Assembly: GCF_003627795.1 (NCBI RefSeq)
Contig: NZ_CP032684.1
Span: 1,899,001-1,963,000 of the forward strand
From: Rhizobium sp. CCGE531
GTDB taxonomy: Bacteria; Pseudomonadota; Alphaproteobacteria; Rhizobiales; Rhizobiaceae
Direction of reading: 5' to 3'
Length of the DNA: 64,000 nt
A program made the position numbers and the translations under genes. Position 1 is the first letter of the stretch. Each line of letters starts with the position of its first letter. Positions 4,999 through 46,934 of this stretch are shown piece after piece. The notes beneath the pieces were generated by a model. The model saw only the letters and a program-made list of their open reading frames with translations, did no database searches and was not told the DNA's origin.

Positions 4999-5364
4999 AT
5001 GTTCAATTTCGAAGACGCGAACAAGAAGGGCAAGGAAGCCATGGACACGGCGCTGAAGAGCTATTCCGATGTCACCAAGGGCTTTCAGGCAATTGCTGCG
5101 GAAGCCGCCGAATATTCCAAGAAGTCTTTCCAGGATGGCGTTACCCACGTCGAAACGCTCGCCGGCGTCAAGAGCTTCGAAGCTGCCTTCGAACTGCAGA
5201 GCAGCTATGTAAAGTCTTCCTACGAAAACTTCGTCGCCGAAGCCACCAAGCTCGGCGAAATGTATGCAGATCTCGCCAAGAATGCCTATAAGCCTTACGA
5301 AGCGCCCGTTGCTGCCGCGACCAAGGCCGCCAGCAAGGCAGCAGCAACGGCAACCGCCGCTTAA
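4999..5364 (+). CDS. Phasin family protein
   Basis: A 121-residue, mostly helical protein with the phasin-type core (residues about 10-100, rich in Ala, Glu and aromatic residues such as YVKSSYENFVAEATKL) and an Ala/Lys-rich C-terminal tail. Phasins coat polyhydroxyalkanoate granules and control granule size. GGAG precedes ATG 4999. The gene is monocistronic between two strong terminators, and its promoter carries candidate PhaR operators. Confidence 0.88.
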   Translation: MFNFEDANKKGKEAMDTALKSYSDVTKGFQAIAAEAAEYSKKSFQDGVTHVETLAGVKSFEAAFELQSSYVKSSYENFVAEATKLGEMYADLAKNAYKPYEAPVAAATKAASKAAATATAA

Positions 5365-5394
5365 GTTCCCGCCGAGAGGCAAAATTTCCGGAAG

Positions 5395-5425
5395 GACCGG
5401 CCACGCACGGCGTGGCCGGTCTTTT
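5395..5425 (+). terminator. Rho-independent terminator after the phasin gene
   Basis: A 12-base GC-rich stem (GACCGGCCACGC paired with GCGTGGCCGGTC), a very short loop and a T run (TTTTGCGTTTT), 31 bases after the phasin stop codon. Confidence 0.88.
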
Positions 5426-5652
5426 GCGTTTTCGAGCACTGAACCGAAGCTGAGGATATGTCGCGACTTTTTTGGCCGCAGCCCGTTTTGTCAGCGAATT
5501 GTGATTGCAGTGTCCCGCAAGGGGCTTAAAATCACGCCAATATGAACTAAGTTAGAGGTTCGGATATCTGGCCCGACCAAATGAAGAAACCAATCCTAGT
5601 TGCCAAGTCGGAATGCGATAGCTTCTGCCGGATGATTTGAGGAAAGAACGAA

Positions 5653-6006
5653 ATGATCGCTGAGCCGATCCGGATGCAAAACAACAGCGAAAGGAACGGG
5701 GACAACGGAAATCGCGGGACCTCGGTGATTACGCGCACCAAGCCCAAAACCAAGAAACCCAATCTATACCGCGTGCTGCTTCTGAATGATGACTATACGC
5801 CCATGGACTTCGTGATCCATATCCTGGAGCGTTTCTTTCAAAAGGATCTCGAGAGTGCCACCCGCATCATGCTTCACGTCCACAACCACGGCGTCGGCGA
5901 GTGCGGGATATATACATATGAAGTAGCCGAAACGAAGGTGAGCCAGGTGATGGACTTTGCCCGGCAGCACCAGCATCCGCTGCAATGTGTTATGGAAAAG
6001 AAGTGA
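5653..6006 (+). CDS. clpS: ATP-dependent Clp protease adaptor ClpS
   Basis: A 117-residue adaptor that binds N-end-rule substrates and delivers them to ClpA. A flexible charged N-terminus of about 35 residues precedes the core, which includes [12 protein letters not shown] and the [19 protein letters not shown] segment of the degron pocket. The gene is immediately followed by clpA, whose GTG start is 10 bases downstream. A 288-base leader separates it from the phasin terminator; no other gene is seen there. Confidence 0.95.
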
Positions 6007-12627: not shown

Positions 12628-12645
12628 TCGTCATAAAACTGTGAT
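12628..12645 (+). promoter_or_regulatory. Weak PHO-box-like site upstream of the telA operon
   Basis: Two 7-base half-sites (TCGTCAT and CTGTGAT) are separated by AAAA. They match 11 of the 14 informative positions of the PHO box CTGTCAT-N4-CTGTCAT. A CTATGG that could serve as a -10 starts at 12656, ten bases downstream, the spacing expected of a PhoB-activated promoter. Matches of this quality are expected a few times by chance in 64 kb, so this is only a candidate. Confidence 0.3.
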
Positions 12646-12810: not shown

Positions 12811-13890
12811 ATGAGCAATACCGATATCTCCACCGGTTCCACCAACAGCCTGCCGGTTGTCGTCGCCGATCCGGCGGAAATCGCCCGCATCGGCGACGGC
12901 ATCGATCTGACCGATCGCGCGGGCATTTCCGTCTATGGCGATCGCGCGCAGCAAGCCGTTTCCGATTATTCCGATCGTATCCTGCGCGAAGTTCGCAATC
13001 GCGATCTTGGCGAGGTCGGCAAGCTGCTGACCGATATCATCGTCAAATCGAAGAAGCTGGACCCCGCCTCCTTGAAGGACGAGGGTTTCCTCTCGCGGAT
13101 GTTTTCCTCGTTCAGGGCGAGGCTGGAGCGCTTCAAGGAGCAATTCGAGGATGTGGCCGGCCAGATCGATCGCATCGGGCTCGAGCTCGATCGGCACAAG
13201 GACATCTTGCGCCGGGATATCGCCCTTCTGGACGATCTGCACGAGGAGACCAAGCAGTCCATCGTGCAGCTCGATGCGTATGTGCAGGCCGGCAAGGATT
13301 TTGCCGAGCGTTTTCGGTCGACCGAACTCCCCCGGCTGAAGAGCGCCGCCGATGCGGCCTCCGCCAATCCGGGCGGCGGCATGCTGGAAGCGCAGATCTA
13401 CCAGGATAGCCTTCAGGCCCTCGATCGGCTGGAGAAGCGGATTTTTTATCTGCAGCAGGCACGCCAGCTCGGCATTCAGCAATTGCCGCAGATCCGGATT
13501 GTCCAGTCGGGCGACGAAACCCTGATCGAAAACCTGCAGGCGACCTCGGCGCTGACGGTGCCGGCCTGGAAGCAGAAGATGGTGATCCTGCTCGGCCTGA
13601 CGCAGCAGAAATCCGCGCTCGACCTGCAGAAGACGGTCACCGACGCCACCAATGACATGATCCGCCAAGCCTCGAAAATGATGAAGGATCAGGCGATCGC
13701 CATAGAACAGCAGTCGCAGCGCGGTATCGTCGACATCGACACACTTGCGGCTGCCAACCGCGACCTGATCGACACGATCGGCGGTGTCCTGAAGGTGCAG
13801 GAGGATGGCCGCGCCAAGCGGGCAGAGGCCGAGCAGCGGATGCAGAAAATGACCATAGAGCTCAAGAAAGCAATGATCGAGGCGCGGTAA
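12811..13890 (+). CDS. TelA family toxic anion resistance protein
   Basis: A 359-residue cytoplasmic, coiled-coil-rich protein of the TelA/YceH family, historically linked to tellurite resistance but with no defined biochemical activity. Family-like segments include the central HKDILRRDIALLDDLHEET stretch and the late WKQKMVILLGLTQQKSALDLQK stretch with the following TNDMIRQ helix. ATG 12811 has a GAGAAAG site nearby; the frame is open upstream to 12751 without a better start. The next gene begins five bases after its stop, indicating an operon. Confidence 0.9.
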   Translation: MSNTDISTGSTNSLPVVVADPAEIARIGDGIDLTDRAGISVYGDRAQQAVSDYSDRILREVRNRDLGEVGKLLTDIIVKSKKLDPASLKDEGFLSRMFSSFRARLERFKEQFEDVAGQIDRIGLELDRHKDILRRDIALLDDLHEETKQSIVQLDAYVQAGKDFAERFRSTELPRLKSAADAASANPGGGMLEAQIYQDSLQALDRLEKRIFYLQQARQLGIQQLPQIRIVQSGDETLIENLQATSALTVPAWKQKMVILLGLTQQKSALDLQKTVTDATNDMIRQASKMMKDQAIAIEQQSQRGIVDIDTLAAANRDLIDTIGGVLKVQEDGRAKRAEAEQRMQKMTIELKKAMIEAR

Positions 13891-13895
13891 TTCGC

Positions 13896-15470
13896 ATGAC
13901 AATCCGCAAATTTGTTACCGGCCTGACGCTCGCGTCAGCTCTTGCGCTGAGCGGCTGCAATATCGGCGGGCAAGGCCCGAAATTCTCGATCGTTTCCGGC
14001 TCGGAAAACACGGTTCTTCAGCCTGTTGTCGAGGAATTCTGCAAGGAGAAGAAGGCGACCTGCAGCTTTACCTATGAAGGCACGCTGGATATCGGCTTGG
14101 CCCTGCAGGGCGAGCAGGGCGTCGAGCAGGATGCCGTCTGGCCTGCCTCGAGCGTCTGGGTCGATATGTTCGACGCCAAGCGGCGGGTGAAGTCATTGAC
14201 GTCGGTCGCGCAGATGCCGGTCATTCTCGGCGTGCGCAAATCCAAGGCCGAGGCGCTCGGCTGGGTCGGCAAGCCTGTTTATATGAAAGACATATTGACG
14301 GCGGTGAAGAGCGGCTCGCTGAAGTTTCTCATGACATCGGCGACACAATCGAATTCCGGCGCCAGTGCCTATCTCGGCATGCTGTCGAGCGCGCTCGGCA
14401 ACAAGCCCGTGATCGAGCCGGGCGATCTCGACAAGCCGGATGTCCAGGGTGCGGTCCGCTCGCTGCTCGGCGGCGTCGAGCGCTCCTCCGGGTCATCGGG
14501 CTGGCTTGCGGATCTCTATACCGATTCGGCCGGAAAGGGCGTGCTCTACGACGCCATGTGGAACTACGAGGCGGTGCTGAAGGAAACCAACGACAAGCTC
14601 GCGGGCATGGGCAAGGAACCGCTTTATGCCATCTACCCCGCCGACGGCGTCGTCGTTGCCGATTCTCCGATCGGTTTCGTCGACCATGGGCGAGGGCAGG
14701 AGGTCGAGATCTTCTTCAACCAGCTCGTCGAATATTTGCGCTCCGCGCCGGTGCAGAAGCGTATCGCGGATACGGGCCGCCGCATTCCGCTCGCGGATGT
14801 CACCGCCAAGCCGGAACCGTCATGGAATTTCGATCCGACCCGGCTCGTGACCGCGATCCGCATGCCGGAGCCTGCCGTCATCCGCCAGGCGCTCGATCTC
14901 TATCAGGTGGCATTGCGCAAGCCGTCACTGACCGCACTCTGCCTTGATTTCTCAGGCTCTATGGCGGGCAAAGGCGAGGAGCAGCTCCAGGCGGCCATGC
15001 ACTTCCTGTTCAATCCCGACGAAACAGGCAAGGTGCTGGCGCAATGGACGCCGACCGATCGCATCATGGTCATTCCGTTCGACGCCGATGTGCGCACGAC
15101 TTTCGAGGGTACGGGAAATCCGGCTCAGCAGAAAATGCTTGTCGACAAGGTTTCGCGCCAGCGCGCCGACGGCGGCACGGATATGTATGCCTGCGCGAGC
15201 AAGGCGCTTGACTGGATAAGCGCGACGCGGGATCTGTCATCCTATCTGCCGGCGATCGTCATCATGACCGATGGTAGATCCGATGATGCCAACGGTGATT
15301 TCATGAGCCGCTGGGCATCGGTGAACCCGCATGTGCCGGTGTTCGGCATCACCTTCGGCGATGCGGACAAGCGGCAGCTGGATGCTCTCGCAAAGGAGAC
15401 CTCGGCGCGCGTCTTTGACGGCCGTGGCGATCTGGTCAGCGCGTTCCGGGCAGTGCGCGGCTATAACTAG
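13896..15470 (+). CDS. Lipoprotein with solute-binding-like and C-terminal VWA domains
   Basis: 524 residues. A lipoprotein signal with lipobox LSGC puts the lipidated Cys at residue 21. A periplasmic-binding-protein-like region (about 28-320) carries WPASS at 82-86 and SNSG at 152-155, both echoed in the fourth gene of the operon. The C-terminal VWA domain (about 345-524) keeps a full metal-ion-dependent adhesion site: DFSGS at 351-355, Thr in GGTDM near 428 and Asp in MTDG near 458. Predicted location is the periplasmic face of a membrane. Its TAG stop coincides with the start of a repeat element. Function unknown. Confidence 0.85.
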   Translation: MTIRKFVTGLTLASALALSGCNIGGQGPKFSIVSGSENTVLQPVVEEFCKEKKATCSFTYEGTLDIGLALQGEQGVEQDAVWPASSVWVDMFDAKRRVKSLTSVAQMPVILGVRKSKAEALGWVGKPVYMKDILTAVKSGSLKFLMTSATQSNSGASAYLGMLSSALGNKPVIEPGDLDKPDVQGAVRSLLGGVERSSGSSGWLADLYTDSAGKGVLYDAMWNYEAVLKETNDKLAGMGKEPLYAIYPADGVVVADSPIGFVDHGRGQEVEIFFNQLVEYLRSAPVQKRIADTGRRIPLADVTAKPEPSWNFDPTRLVTAIRMPEPAVIRQALDLYQVALRKPSLTALCLDFSGSMAGKGEEQLQAAMHFLFNPDETGKVLAQWTPTDRIMVIPFDADVRTTFEGTGNPAQQKMLVDKVSRQRADGGTDMYACASKALDWISATRDLSSYLPAIVIMTDGRSDDANGDFMSRWASVNPHVPVFGITFGDADKRQLDALAKETSARVFDGRGDLVSAFRAVRGYN

Positions 15471-15572
15471 GGCATTTCTGTTTTAAACGGAGTCACGGAA
15501 ATGCTCTATCTCTTTGTTTTCACGCAATTCCAGACGCAAAACCGCTTCGCGCCTTTGCCGGAATTGCTCTAG
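15468..15572. repeat. RIME-like intergenic repeat inside the telA operon (inverted orientation)
   Basis: Read on the minus strand, this element shares the AGCGGTTTTGCG core, the GGAATTGCG block and the GCATTTCCGTGAC block with the element at 46845-46934. Its first bases supply the TAG stop of the VWA gene, and its last bases (CTCTAG, 15567-15572) run into the AGGACG ribosome site of the next gene. It occupies the whole gap between two operon members. Confidence 0.82.
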
Positions 15573-15579
15573 GACGATA

Positions 15580-16197
15580 ATGCGCAATTGGTTCGGCAAT
15601 GACTGGAATTGGATCGTGGCGGGCCTTGCCGCCGCCATCGTCGTTCCTGTCCTCAGCTTTGTTGCCGGCATGCCGATATGGATCGCGGCGATCATCGGCC
15701 TCTTGGTTTTCGTCGGCCTGATCTTCGTCCTTGCACCGAAGCGTATGTTCGAAGGGCTGGATGCGAAGGCGATCGGCAGGGGACGTCTGGATTTTGCCCG
15801 CGACCTGTTGAGCGCGGCGACACCCGCCGCGCAAAGGCTGGAAGCGTCGGCGAGCCAGATCGTCAGCAAGGAAACGGCAAAACGGGTGCGACATCTGGCT
15901 GAAATCGCCGCCGACGTCTTTGCCAAGGTGGAGGCCAATCCGGAAAGCGCCGGCACGGTCCGGCGGTTCCTCAGCTATTATCTGCCGCGGGCAGCGGAGG
16001 TGGCGGAAGGATTTGCCGTGATCGAGGCAAAACGCCAGCCGGATGCCGTCCGCCTGCAGGAGGTCGGTCTCGTTCTGACCAAACTCGAAGACGCTTTCGT
16101 ACACTATTCCGATAGCCTGGTCGAAGACAGGCTTGATACGCTTGATACCGAGCTGCGCCTCATACAGGCCTCGCTCAAAGAGGACATAGGACGCTGA
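15580..16197 (+). CDS. XpaC-like (5-bromo-4-chloroindolyl phosphate hydrolysis family) membrane protein
   Basis: 205 residues with two adjacent N-terminal hydrophobic segments (about residues 8-28 and 31-50) followed by a helical cytoplasmic domain containing RRFLSYYLPRAAEVAEGF, the recognisable core of the XpaC family. XpaC homologues recur beside TelA genes; the original hydrolysis phenotype does not define a natural substrate. ATG 15580 follows the AGGACG site made at the edge of the upstream repeat. The stop codon overlaps the next start by one base (TGATG). Confidence 0.82.
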   Translation: MRNWFGNDWNWIVAGLAAAIVVPVLSFVAGMPIWIAAIIGLLVFVGLIFVLAPKRMFEGLDAKAIGRGRLDFARDLLSAATPAAQRLEASASQIVSKETAKRVRHLAEIAADVFAKVEANPESAGTVRRFLSYYLPRAAEVAEGFAVIEAKRQPDAVRLQEVGLVLTKLEDAFVHYSDSLVEDRLDTLDTELRLIQASLKEDIGR

Positions 16198-17303
16198 TGG
16201 CCATTTCCCGCCGCGCTTTTGGAGTAGGGCTTCTTGCCGCCGGTGTCGCGGGGACCGGAGGCTATTTCGCTGTCAAGGACCGGCCGGAGCTACAGGGGCT
16301 GCTCGGCAACCGCACCAAGCTCTTCGGCTTCATCGGCGGCGAGAAGGAAGCCTTCCTGGCTGACAACGACGTGATCTCGGCGCTCCACGGTTACGGATTG
16401 GAGATCAACAGCCGCGTCGCCGGTTCGGTCGAGATGGTGCGTGAACAGGCGCTTCTGTCGCAGAACCCCGCGTTCCTGTGGCCGTCCTCATCGATCATGG
16501 TCGATATCGCCCGGCAGGGCGGCATCAAGATCCGCAACGATCGCGTCATCCTCAATACGCCCATCGTCGTCTATTCCTGGCAGCCCGTCGTCGACGGATT
16601 GACCAAGGCGGGGCTCGTCACCACGACGCCAGAGGGGCAGCATCAGCTTGATCTCAAGGCGTTGCTGGACGCAATGCTTGCCGGAACGAACTGGTCGAAG
16701 CTCGGCGTCAACTCGCTCTATGGTCAGGCCCGGATCGTCTCGACCGATCCCAACCGTTCCAATTCCGGCTTCATGTTTTCAGGCCTCGTGCTCAGCCTCC
16801 TGAGCGGCAATGTGGCGAGTACTGAAAGTCTCCCGCAATTCGGGGACAAGGCGCAGGCGATCTTCCGCAACATGGGCTTCAAGTCGTCGTCATCGGGCAA
16901 GCTGTTCGAACAGTATCTTGCCGGTGGCATCGGCGGCGAGCCGATGATCGTCGGCTATGAGAATCAGCTGGTGGAATGGATTATCGCCGATCCGAAGCGT
17001 TGGCAGAGGATACAGGCCGGCAACAGCGCTAAGCCCGTGGTGCTCTATCCGCATCCGACCGTCTATTCCGCGCACCCGCTGATCGCCATCGATGAACAGG
17101 TCGATCGCATGATAGAGGCCTTGGTCAGCCCGCGGCTACAGGAGCTTGCCTGGACCAAGCACGGTTTCCGTGGGCCGCTGGGAACAGTAACCGGCGATGC
17201 CGACAGCGCGATTGCCGGCCTGCTGCCGGCTGAAATCGACGCCGTATTGCCGATGCCGGACGCCAATGTCATGCTGGCGCTGCTCGACAAACTGGTCAGC
17301 TGA
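16197..17303 (+). CDS. Tat-exported solute-binding-like protein
   Basis: 368 residues. The N-terminus SRRAFGVGLLAAG is a twin-arginine signal, so export in folded form is expected. The mature part is periplasmic-binding-protein-like and shares with the VWA lipoprotein the motif WPSSS..VD (residues 95-103 here) and SNSG (188-191), implying the two arose from one ancestral binding domain. No transporter permease or ATPase gene accompanies it. The ligand is unknown. It is the last gene of the telA operon. Confidence 0.8.
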   Translation: MAISRRAFGVGLLAAGVAGTGGYFAVKDRPELQGLLGNRTKLFGFIGGEKEAFLADNDVISALHGYGLEINSRVAGSVEMVREQALLSQNPAFLWPSSSIMVDIARQGGIKIRNDRVILNTPIVVYSWQPVVDGLTKAGLVTTTPEGQHQLDLKALLDAMLAGTNWSKLGVNSLYGQARIVSTDPNRSNSGFMFSGLVLSLLSGNVASTESLPQFGDKAQAIFRNMGFKSSSSGKLFEQYLAGGIGGEPMIVGYENQLVEWIIADPKRWQRIQAGNSAKPVVLYPHPTVYSAHPLIAIDEQVDRMIEALVSPRLQELAWTKHGFRGPLGTVTGDADSAIAGLLPAEIDAVLPMPDANVMLALLDKLVS

Positions 17304-46592: not shown

Positions 46593-46847
46593 ATGTCTAT
46601 AGCTGCTCAAGGTTGGATCGTCTTTCTTCTCATCGGGCTGGTCGCGGGGTTTCTCGCGAGCCTGATCGTCGGAGGAGGCGGGCTCGTCGGTTGCCTGGTG
46701 AGCGGTGTGATCGGAGCGTTCGTTGGCGGCTTCCTGTTTCACTATTTCGGGATTTCGCTCGGCATTGAAAATGCGCTTGTGGTGGAAATCATCCATGCCA
46801 CCGTCGGCGCGATCATCGTGGTGCTGTTGGCGAGATTGATCGTCTAG
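46593..46847 (+). CDS. GlsB/YeaQ/YmgE family small membrane protein
   Basis: 84 residues, nearly all hydrophobic, with three predicted membrane segments and glycine-rich turns (AGFLASLIVGGGGLVG). The family, also called transglycosylase-associated, is stress-induced in several bacteria and has no defined biochemical role. Its TAG stop codon is the first three bases of a RIME-like repeat. A second family member lies 102 bases downstream. Confidence 0.85.
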   Translation: MSIAAQGWIVFLLIGLVAGFLASLIVGGGGLVGCLVSGVIGAFVGGFLFHYFGISLGIENALVVEIIHATVGAIIVVLLARLIV

Positions 46848-46934
46848 AGCAATTCCAGGAAAAGTGCGTAGCGGTTTTCCGTCCGGAATTGCGAAAAACA
46901 AAAGGATTGAGCATTTCCGTGACGGAAATGCTCT
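46845..46934. repeat. RIME-like intergenic repeat between the two GlsB-type genes
   Basis: It begins TAGAGCAATTCC and ends GGAAATGCTCT. Internal blocks AAAAGTGCG, AGCGGTTTTCCGTCCGGAAT and GAGCATTTCCGTGACGG are shared with the elements at 2453-2576 and, inverted, at 15468-15572. It separates two related small membrane protein genes. Confidence 0.85.

Follow-up and report, generated by a model that had tools for sequence, protein, structure and literature searches.

Promoter motifs point to phosphate control of a four-gene TelA–XpaC module with paired solute-binding proteins in rhizobia and actinomycetes

The window analysed here is a stretch of 64,000 nucleotides from Rhizobium sp. CCGE531 (NCBI contig NZ_CP032684.1, positions 1,899,001 to 1,963,000, forward strand). 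It contains a module of four genes, all on the forward strand, which encode TelA (T), a lipoprotein combining a solute-binding protein (SBP) half with a VWA domain (V), an XpaC-like protein (X) and a second SBP (S). The first gene, telA (12811-13890, 359 aa), matches Pfam family PF05816 with an E-value of 1.2e-92. It is followed by the gene for V (13896-15470, 524 aa), which contains an SBP_bac_11 domain (PF13531) and a VWA domain (PF13519/PF00092), and by that for X (15580-16197, 205 aa), which matches Halogen_Hydrol (PF10112, E = 1.3e-28). T and X flank V, forming a linked TelA and XpaC pair. The last gene encodes S (16197-17303, 368 aa), a protein with an N-terminal hydrophobic helix that was recognised from its predicted structure and its homology to V. 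All four frames are open, without internal stops, and the initial annotation of this DNA, made from the sequence letters alone, had the frames, their coordinates and their domains right. A candidate Pho box, TCGTCATAAAACTGTGAT, lies on the same strand at 12628-12645, with 165 bases between the box and the TelA start codon.

The genes are closely spaced, with 5 bases between T and V, 109 bases between V and X and a 1-base overlap of X and S, in agreement with the initial annotation, which correctly described the V–X gap as filled with repeats. The V–X gap is filled by a dispersed palindromic repeat of approximately 100 bp (15471-15579, no strand assigned), for which at least 41 matches were found in the 7.14 Mb host genome; this count is a lower bound, as 40 of 135 candidates were scored. 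Another copy lies in the window at 46844-46923. Among the Rhizobium relatives, the V–X gap measures 7 bp in 11 of 15 loci and 109–112 bp in the other four, and the repeat is not present at this position in most of them. In the window, the interval between eipB and rpsB is filled by T, V, X and S alone and therefore contains no permease or ATPase gene. The earlier statement that this is not an ATP-binding cassette (ABC) transporter thus holds for the locus.

No Pfam family matched S, and searches of PDB sequences returned no credible match to it. Its AlphaFold2 model (pLDDT 91.2, pTM 0.85) shows an N-terminal helix at residues 5-26 and a canonical type-II SBP fold, as judged from Foldseek and VIA-align matches. 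The top Foldseek matches are the sugar-phosphate binder AfuA, the sulfate binder Sbp and the pyridoxal phosphate binder P5PA. Profile comparison of S with the SBP half of V (hhalign) gave a probability of 99.5 and an E-value of 1.7e-22. By this homology S is a paralogue of V's SBP half, and the solute-binding-like character first assigned to it is supported by both structure and profile. The N-terminal helix is probably a membrane anchor or an export signal. S had also been labelled a twin-arginine translocation (Tat) substrate; a twin-arginine start (RRx) is indeed found in 14 of 17 alphaproteobacterial sequences, but in only 2 of 27 others, so that Tat export seems not to be a defining feature of the module. 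In V, the lipoprotein cysteine (Cys21) is invariant and a lipobox pattern is found in 33 of 37 aligned sequences. Its VWA domain had been described as complete, and the metal ion-dependent adhesion site (MIDAS; DxSxS...T...D), comprising D351, S353, S355, T428 and D459, is intact in all 37.

X contains hydrophobic segments at residues 12-28 and 35-51, and exactly two such segments occur in 24 of the 32 X sequences aligned. It looks like a two-helix membrane hairpin with a helical tail and hardly any outside part. No signal or transmembrane segment was found in TelA, which is taken to be cytoplasmic, and PDB sequence searches with it returned weak coiled-coil matches only. The host genome contains a single TelA match. 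To our knowledge, TelA and XpaC are widespread proteins without a defined biochemistry. A different TelA neighbourhood was seen in Pseudorhodobacter (L006, 4957-10286), where an XpaC–TelA pair stands beside SPFH/virion-core-like and zinc-ribbon proteins (labelled by eye), with no match to S or V.

As S has no Pfam family, it was chosen as the bait for relatives of the module. A peptide-pattern scan of a species-genome collection yielded 203 relatives, the best 80 of which were kept; this set rests on one peptide pattern, and Lentzea and Nonomuraea are over-represented in it. Profile searches showed that 58 of these best 80 loci carry T, V, X and S on a single strand, and consecutive module genes are less than 600 bp apart in 57 of the 58. 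The order is S-T-V-X in 56 complete loci (one with a wider gap) and V-X-S-T in two, both of which are cyclic permutations of the order T-V-X-S seen in the window. The incomplete loci comprise S-V-X (11), S-V (5), V-S (1) and S-T-V (1, at a contig end), while S stands alone in four, one of them at a contig end. Relatives occur in Pseudomonadota, Actinomycetota, Verrucomicrobiota and Bacillota. In records from a plasmid collection, the four genes were found in another order in Sphaerotilus, Variovorax and Nonomuraea. Members from these three genera had been used in building the T and X profiles, and X of this clade therefore matches partly by construction. When the X profiles of the two clades were compared separately, they matched with a probability of 93.3 (E = 2.6e-7, 121 columns).

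Several unusual S homologues were also seen. A metagenome-assembled genome (MAG) of Hahella contains a solitary second S (L100) besides a complete module (L035). In a Lachnospiraceae MAG (L103, 7926-10031), S and TelA share a single frame, which may reflect a deletion or an assembly artefact; it was set aside because its S is missing the last 40 or so residues. A deltaproteobacterial S-like protein (L075, 7488-9053) has a long N-terminal extension, which by eye we take to be CsgG-like. An S-like domain in Nocardia (L080, 7422-8972) likewise lies in a longer frame with an N-terminal extension. Neither of the latter two loci contains a match to V, X or T.

The four genes have been inherited together. 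Across 32 complete loci, tree-distance correlations range from 0.90 to 0.96 for all six gene pairs, with none of 999 permutations as high. This set excludes L024, L030 and L103, together with 32 loci belonging to Lentzea, Nonomuraea and a small number of close relatives. Each of the four gene trees shows the same two-clade split (support 0.998–1.0), in which clade I comprises alphaproteobacteria and Clostridia, and clade II comprises beta- and gammaproteobacteria, Verrucomicrobiota and actinomycetes. A 35-sequence tree of V also places UBP7, L103 and one further alphaproteobacterial genome inside clade I. Among 199 genomes of the host order, 6 contain S, 6 contain V, 7 contain X and 9 contain T, where S and V were scored on the top 7–10 first-look candidates per genome. 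The same six genomes carry S and V, and all four genes lie within 5 kb of each other there. Of the remainder, one genome contains T and X on separate contigs and two contain T only. The initial annotation had proposed a dedicated four-part system, and had named restriction to one lineage as one of the findings that would refute it. The recurrence of the set in several phyla, together with this co-variation, strongly supports the proposal, and we regard the four-gene module as real with near certainty.

Within the host class, S was found in 4 of 115 genomes drawn, and within the host genus in 50 of 120, some of these being fragments. The flanking genes are largely constant: rpsB lies 3′ of the module in 29 of 30 genus loci fetched, and eipB lies 5′ of T in all 15 examined. 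In two genomes, S is reduced to a 3′ remnant between eipB and rpsB (L166 in G415, 5478-5759; L167 in G370, 5272-5670), a sign of module decay. Two other genomes of the genus have eipB followed by rpsB, approximately 0.3 and 1.1 kb apart, with no match to any of the four proteins between them. The simplest reading is that the module is old, occupies a constant site and has been lost repeatedly within the genus. A functional tie to eipB was considered and rejected, as eipB is present in 8 of 8 genomes searched, lies far from the module in one of them (G249), and keeps its place beside rpsB in the two genomes with an empty interval. One Rhizobium genome has two tandem EipB-like genes 5′ of the module (L163, 35-1700). 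A phage origin is likewise unsupported: viral contigs gave 26 pattern matches, of which none was confirmed as an S relative. Sphaerotilus S had no match in 50,697 phage records, and it matched 8 of 72,556 plasmid records, several of them chromosome-sized.

The upstream Pho box is the strongest functional clue to the module, and it was missed by the initial annotation. In both E. coli and R. leguminosarum, the Pho box has been described as 7-nt CTGTCAT repeats with a 4-nt spacer (PMC4415409; PMC3131613). The box at 12628-12645 is the sole site in the 64 kb window with three or fewer mismatches to CTGTCATAWAWCTGTSAT, against an expectation of 0.11, and at least one such match arose in 10 of 100 shuffles. 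It is one of two sites in the whole genome with two or fewer mismatches, where the control gave none. Its half-sites have 3/14 mismatches, the same as those of both pstS homologues of the host, for which a longer stretch was scanned and which themselves score below the family cut-off. Alignment of 16 Rhizobium loci revealed an invariant block, TCATAAA-N-CTGT, in otherwise diverged upstream DNA. Mismatches to CTGTCAT-N4-CTGTCAT averaged 2.75 of 14 in the 16 regions upstream of the module, compared with 4.60 in 15 regions preceding eipB and 5.13 in 16 regions preceding rpsB. For five divergent Rhizobium loci, none of 300 permuted motifs matched equally well.

The E. coli 18-mer gave a mixed result across all loci, and phylum-specific half-sites were therefore used instead. 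In actinomycetes the half-site is GTTCACC (PMC4415409). Upstream of S in 17 actinomycete loci, approximately one per genus, mismatches to GTTCACC-N4-GTTCACC averaged 2.71, against 4.85 for permuted half-sites, none of 300 of which did equally well. Control regions gave 4.76 when taken from downstream of the module and 4.88 when taken 1.6 kb upstream. Three or fewer mismatches were found in 13 of the 17 loci, whereas permuted motifs reached this level in a mean of 0.79 loci and at most 10; the permutation reaching 10 may represent the motif itself in a shifted register. In a further 25 loci, nearly all from Pseudonocardiaceae, the mean was 1.40, with three perfect copies and none of 300 permuted motifs as good. 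The mean for 18 Streptosporangiaceae loci was 3.39, with 3 of 300 permuted motifs equally good. In gel shifts, Actinosynnema PhoP is reported to bind promoters with GTTCACNC, acting there as a repressor (PMC9019756). Rhizobium and actinomycete loci each fit their own box and not that of the other group, so that the two phyla seem to run the module by different phosphate switches. In Sphaerotilus, the gene for the PhoX phosphatase ends 4 bases before S and has an upstream box with 2/14 mismatches, while the module is followed by a small hypothetical gene and then by an ExeM/NucH nuclease gene.

Several observations weigh against Pho control, or at least against its generality. Scanning with the E. 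coli 18-mer found little beyond the alphaproteobacteria and a few betaproteobacteria. The signal is weak in 15 beta-, gammaproteobacterial and verrucomicrobial loci, for which 7 of 300 permuted motifs did as well, and three or fewer mismatches were found in 2 of the 15 loci, against a permuted mean of 0.40 and a maximum of 4. Two Clostridia loci showed no Bacillus-type Pho pattern in the DNA upstream of them. All 16 Rhizobium loci come from close relatives, and two of four other alphaproteobacterial loci have 5/14 mismatches. The second genomic site with two or fewer mismatches adjoins hydantoinase- and oxidase-like genes (labelled by eye) and not Pho genes. Confirmed PHO boxes have been reported at genes without phosphate control, and clear Pho genes may be without a box (PMC4415409), while a good PHO-box match of rosR played no role (PMC3131613). 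The main text of a study of phosphate stress in S. meliloti (PMC8829014) contains none of the terms looked for. Promoter motifs nevertheless indicate Pho control of the module, which we consider highly probable in rhizobia and actinomycetes.

The following mechanism is proposed. When phosphate is low, PhoB (PhoP in actinomycetes) would turn on the operon. S, by way of its N-terminal hydrophobic helix, and the lipoprotein V would then sit outside the inner membrane, with V contributing a putative metal-dependent VWA adhesion domain. Their ligand would most likely be a phosphorus compound, either phosphate itself, one of its esters or some other such component of the envelope. S and V probably pair via the VWA metal site, an attractive arrangement because S would be V's own binding half supplied in trans. 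Since the module has no permease, the two proteins are probably receptors or scaffolds rather than importers, and their ligand state may be coupled to XpaC in the membrane. As X has nearly no outside part, contact via the S helix or the lipid surface seems likeliest. XpaC, together with TelA beneath it where present, would adjust or protect the membrane. This mechanism in full, that of a Pho-regulon envelope system in which S/V receptors are coupled to XpaC/TelA, is in our view about evenly poised between right and wrong. More tentatively, the module may represent an undescribed class of phosphate-starvation receptor, in which a paired SBP and SBP–VWA protein steer a machine in the membrane (XpaC, alone or joined by TelA) and no transporter takes part.

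Three further points count against these proposals. Thiamin, ferric-ion and polyamine binders match S about as well as its top matches do, and given such similar scores for unlike binders the fold of S settles neither the ligand nor its charge. TelA matches are absent from 17 of 20 genomes chosen because S has no adjacent TelA there. The initial annotation had suggested that a ligand-sensing periplasmic layer signals through XpaC to TelA; such a route may exist, but TelA is not required as its endpoint. Finally, an ABC-ATPase-type cluster lies within 4.5 kb of the module in seven of the genera compared. This was the most widespread of the real-looking recurrent neighbours, followed by GGDEF-like (4 genera), acyl-CoA-synthetase-like (3) and aminotransferase-like (3) clusters. 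In all, 28 neighbour clusters were found in at least three genera (44 loci); they were labelled by eye, each on the basis of a single sequence, and most are shadow frames of module genes. Pfam searches of 20 flanking frames revealed no shared theme.

The ABC-ATPase neighbours bear on a rather unlikely alternative, in which S and V serve as scavenging co-receptors that pass a phosphorus compound to the permease of Pst, Ugp or a different ABC system encoded at another site, with TelA and XpaC as accessories. The canonical type-II SBP fold of S, the PF13531 domain of V, Pho control, the PhoX and nuclease neighbours in Sphaerotilus, and a permease-family frame adjoining one Lentzea module (L042) would all suit such a role. 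Against it, consecutive module genes in nearly all complete loci are less than 600 bp apart, too close to accommodate a permease gene between them, and a shuttle would not be expected to have a VWA domain or a TelA partner in the cytoplasm. Among known uptake systems, Pst has an SBP with an upstream Pho box (that of the host pstS), as does Ugp, but these ABC systems differ from the module, which has neither permease nor ATPase. In Staphylococcus aureus, the HptA–HptS system senses glucose-6-phosphate, with HptA signalling to a histidine kinase. HptA is not known to have a VWA, XpaC or TelA partner, and the module in turn has no kinase.

The family name of TelA, ‘toxic anion resistance’, and its relative klaB on plasmid RK2 suggest another explanation, which we consider unlikely. 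Starvation-induced phosphate uptake would admit arsenate, tellurite or similar anions, S and V would trap or sense these, and TelA and XpaC would protect the cell. Pho control would suit this scenario, and the oxyanion binders ModA and Sbp are among the matches to S. In Listeria, a telA mutant is reported to be 2-fold more sensitive to tellurite and 4-fold more sensitive to nisin, and the mechanism of TelA is termed unknown in that study (PMC12791056). However, the operon has no counterpart of KlaA or KlaC, the host genome has its one TelA match only, and no efflux or reductase gene was recognised by eye among the recurrent neighbour clusters, each judged from one sequence. The klaB product of RK2 klaABC is a TelA homologue with 26% identity to TelA of the window, but klaABC has no SBP, VWA or XpaC match. 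In an IncP locus (L005, 3159-6033), KlaA also belongs to the TelA family (PF05816, E = 1.7e-10) and KlaC matches the TrbC/VirB2 pilin family (PF04956), a Pfam make-up unlike that of XpaC, S or V. Membership of the module in the klaABC group was thus rejected, as KlaA is a TelA paralogue, KlaC is TrbC/VirB2-like, and neither is found in the window operon.

The nisin phenotype belongs with a third alternative, that of a general envelope-stress module resembling xpaC–yaaN of Bacillus. Its SBP-like domains would have cell-wall or lipid material as their ligand, with the Pho box as one input among several. The xpaC and yaaN genes are listed among the core sigma-W genes of B. subtilis (PMC3498285), and a transcriptome table in the Lactococcus CesSR paper gives ratios of 10.3 for an XpaC-like gene and 3.44 for telA1 (PMC3139573). 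These pairs likewise combine a PF10112-type gene with a PF05816 gene, and they have been reported as pairs in envelope-stress contexts. The window module differs in adding two SBPs, one with a VWA domain, and a Pho box at the promoter. The accounts from Bacillus, Listeria and Lactococcus, in the parts that concern these genes, mention the XpaC–TelA pair only, without S or V. As the conserved element found upstream of the module is a Pho box, a general envelope-stress role seems quite improbable.

V, which is also present in R. leguminosarum, carries the name ‘Ca-activated chloride channel family’ in several sources, as do other VWA proteins. It is distinguished from them by its SBP fusion and conserved operon, and nothing supports a channel function. 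This descriptive database name, each single part of the module and XpaC–TelA pairs were already known, and the new element here is the Pho box upstream of the four-gene module. Among the papers listed by full-text literature searches, none was recognised as treating the four-gene set or its Pho control, and an earlier account may exist.

The association of a TelA–XpaC module with a phosphate-starvation motif in two phyla opens a testable role for these proteins beyond ‘toxic anion resistance’. On this view, bacteria associated with soil and plants may have a Pho regulon that includes a receptor module besides transporters, phosphatases and two-component systems. If the receptor reading is true, it would give TelA–XpaC a role beyond ‘tellurite resistance’, and rhizobia and actinomycetes would have in common a branch of the Pho response that involves neither transport nor a kinase.

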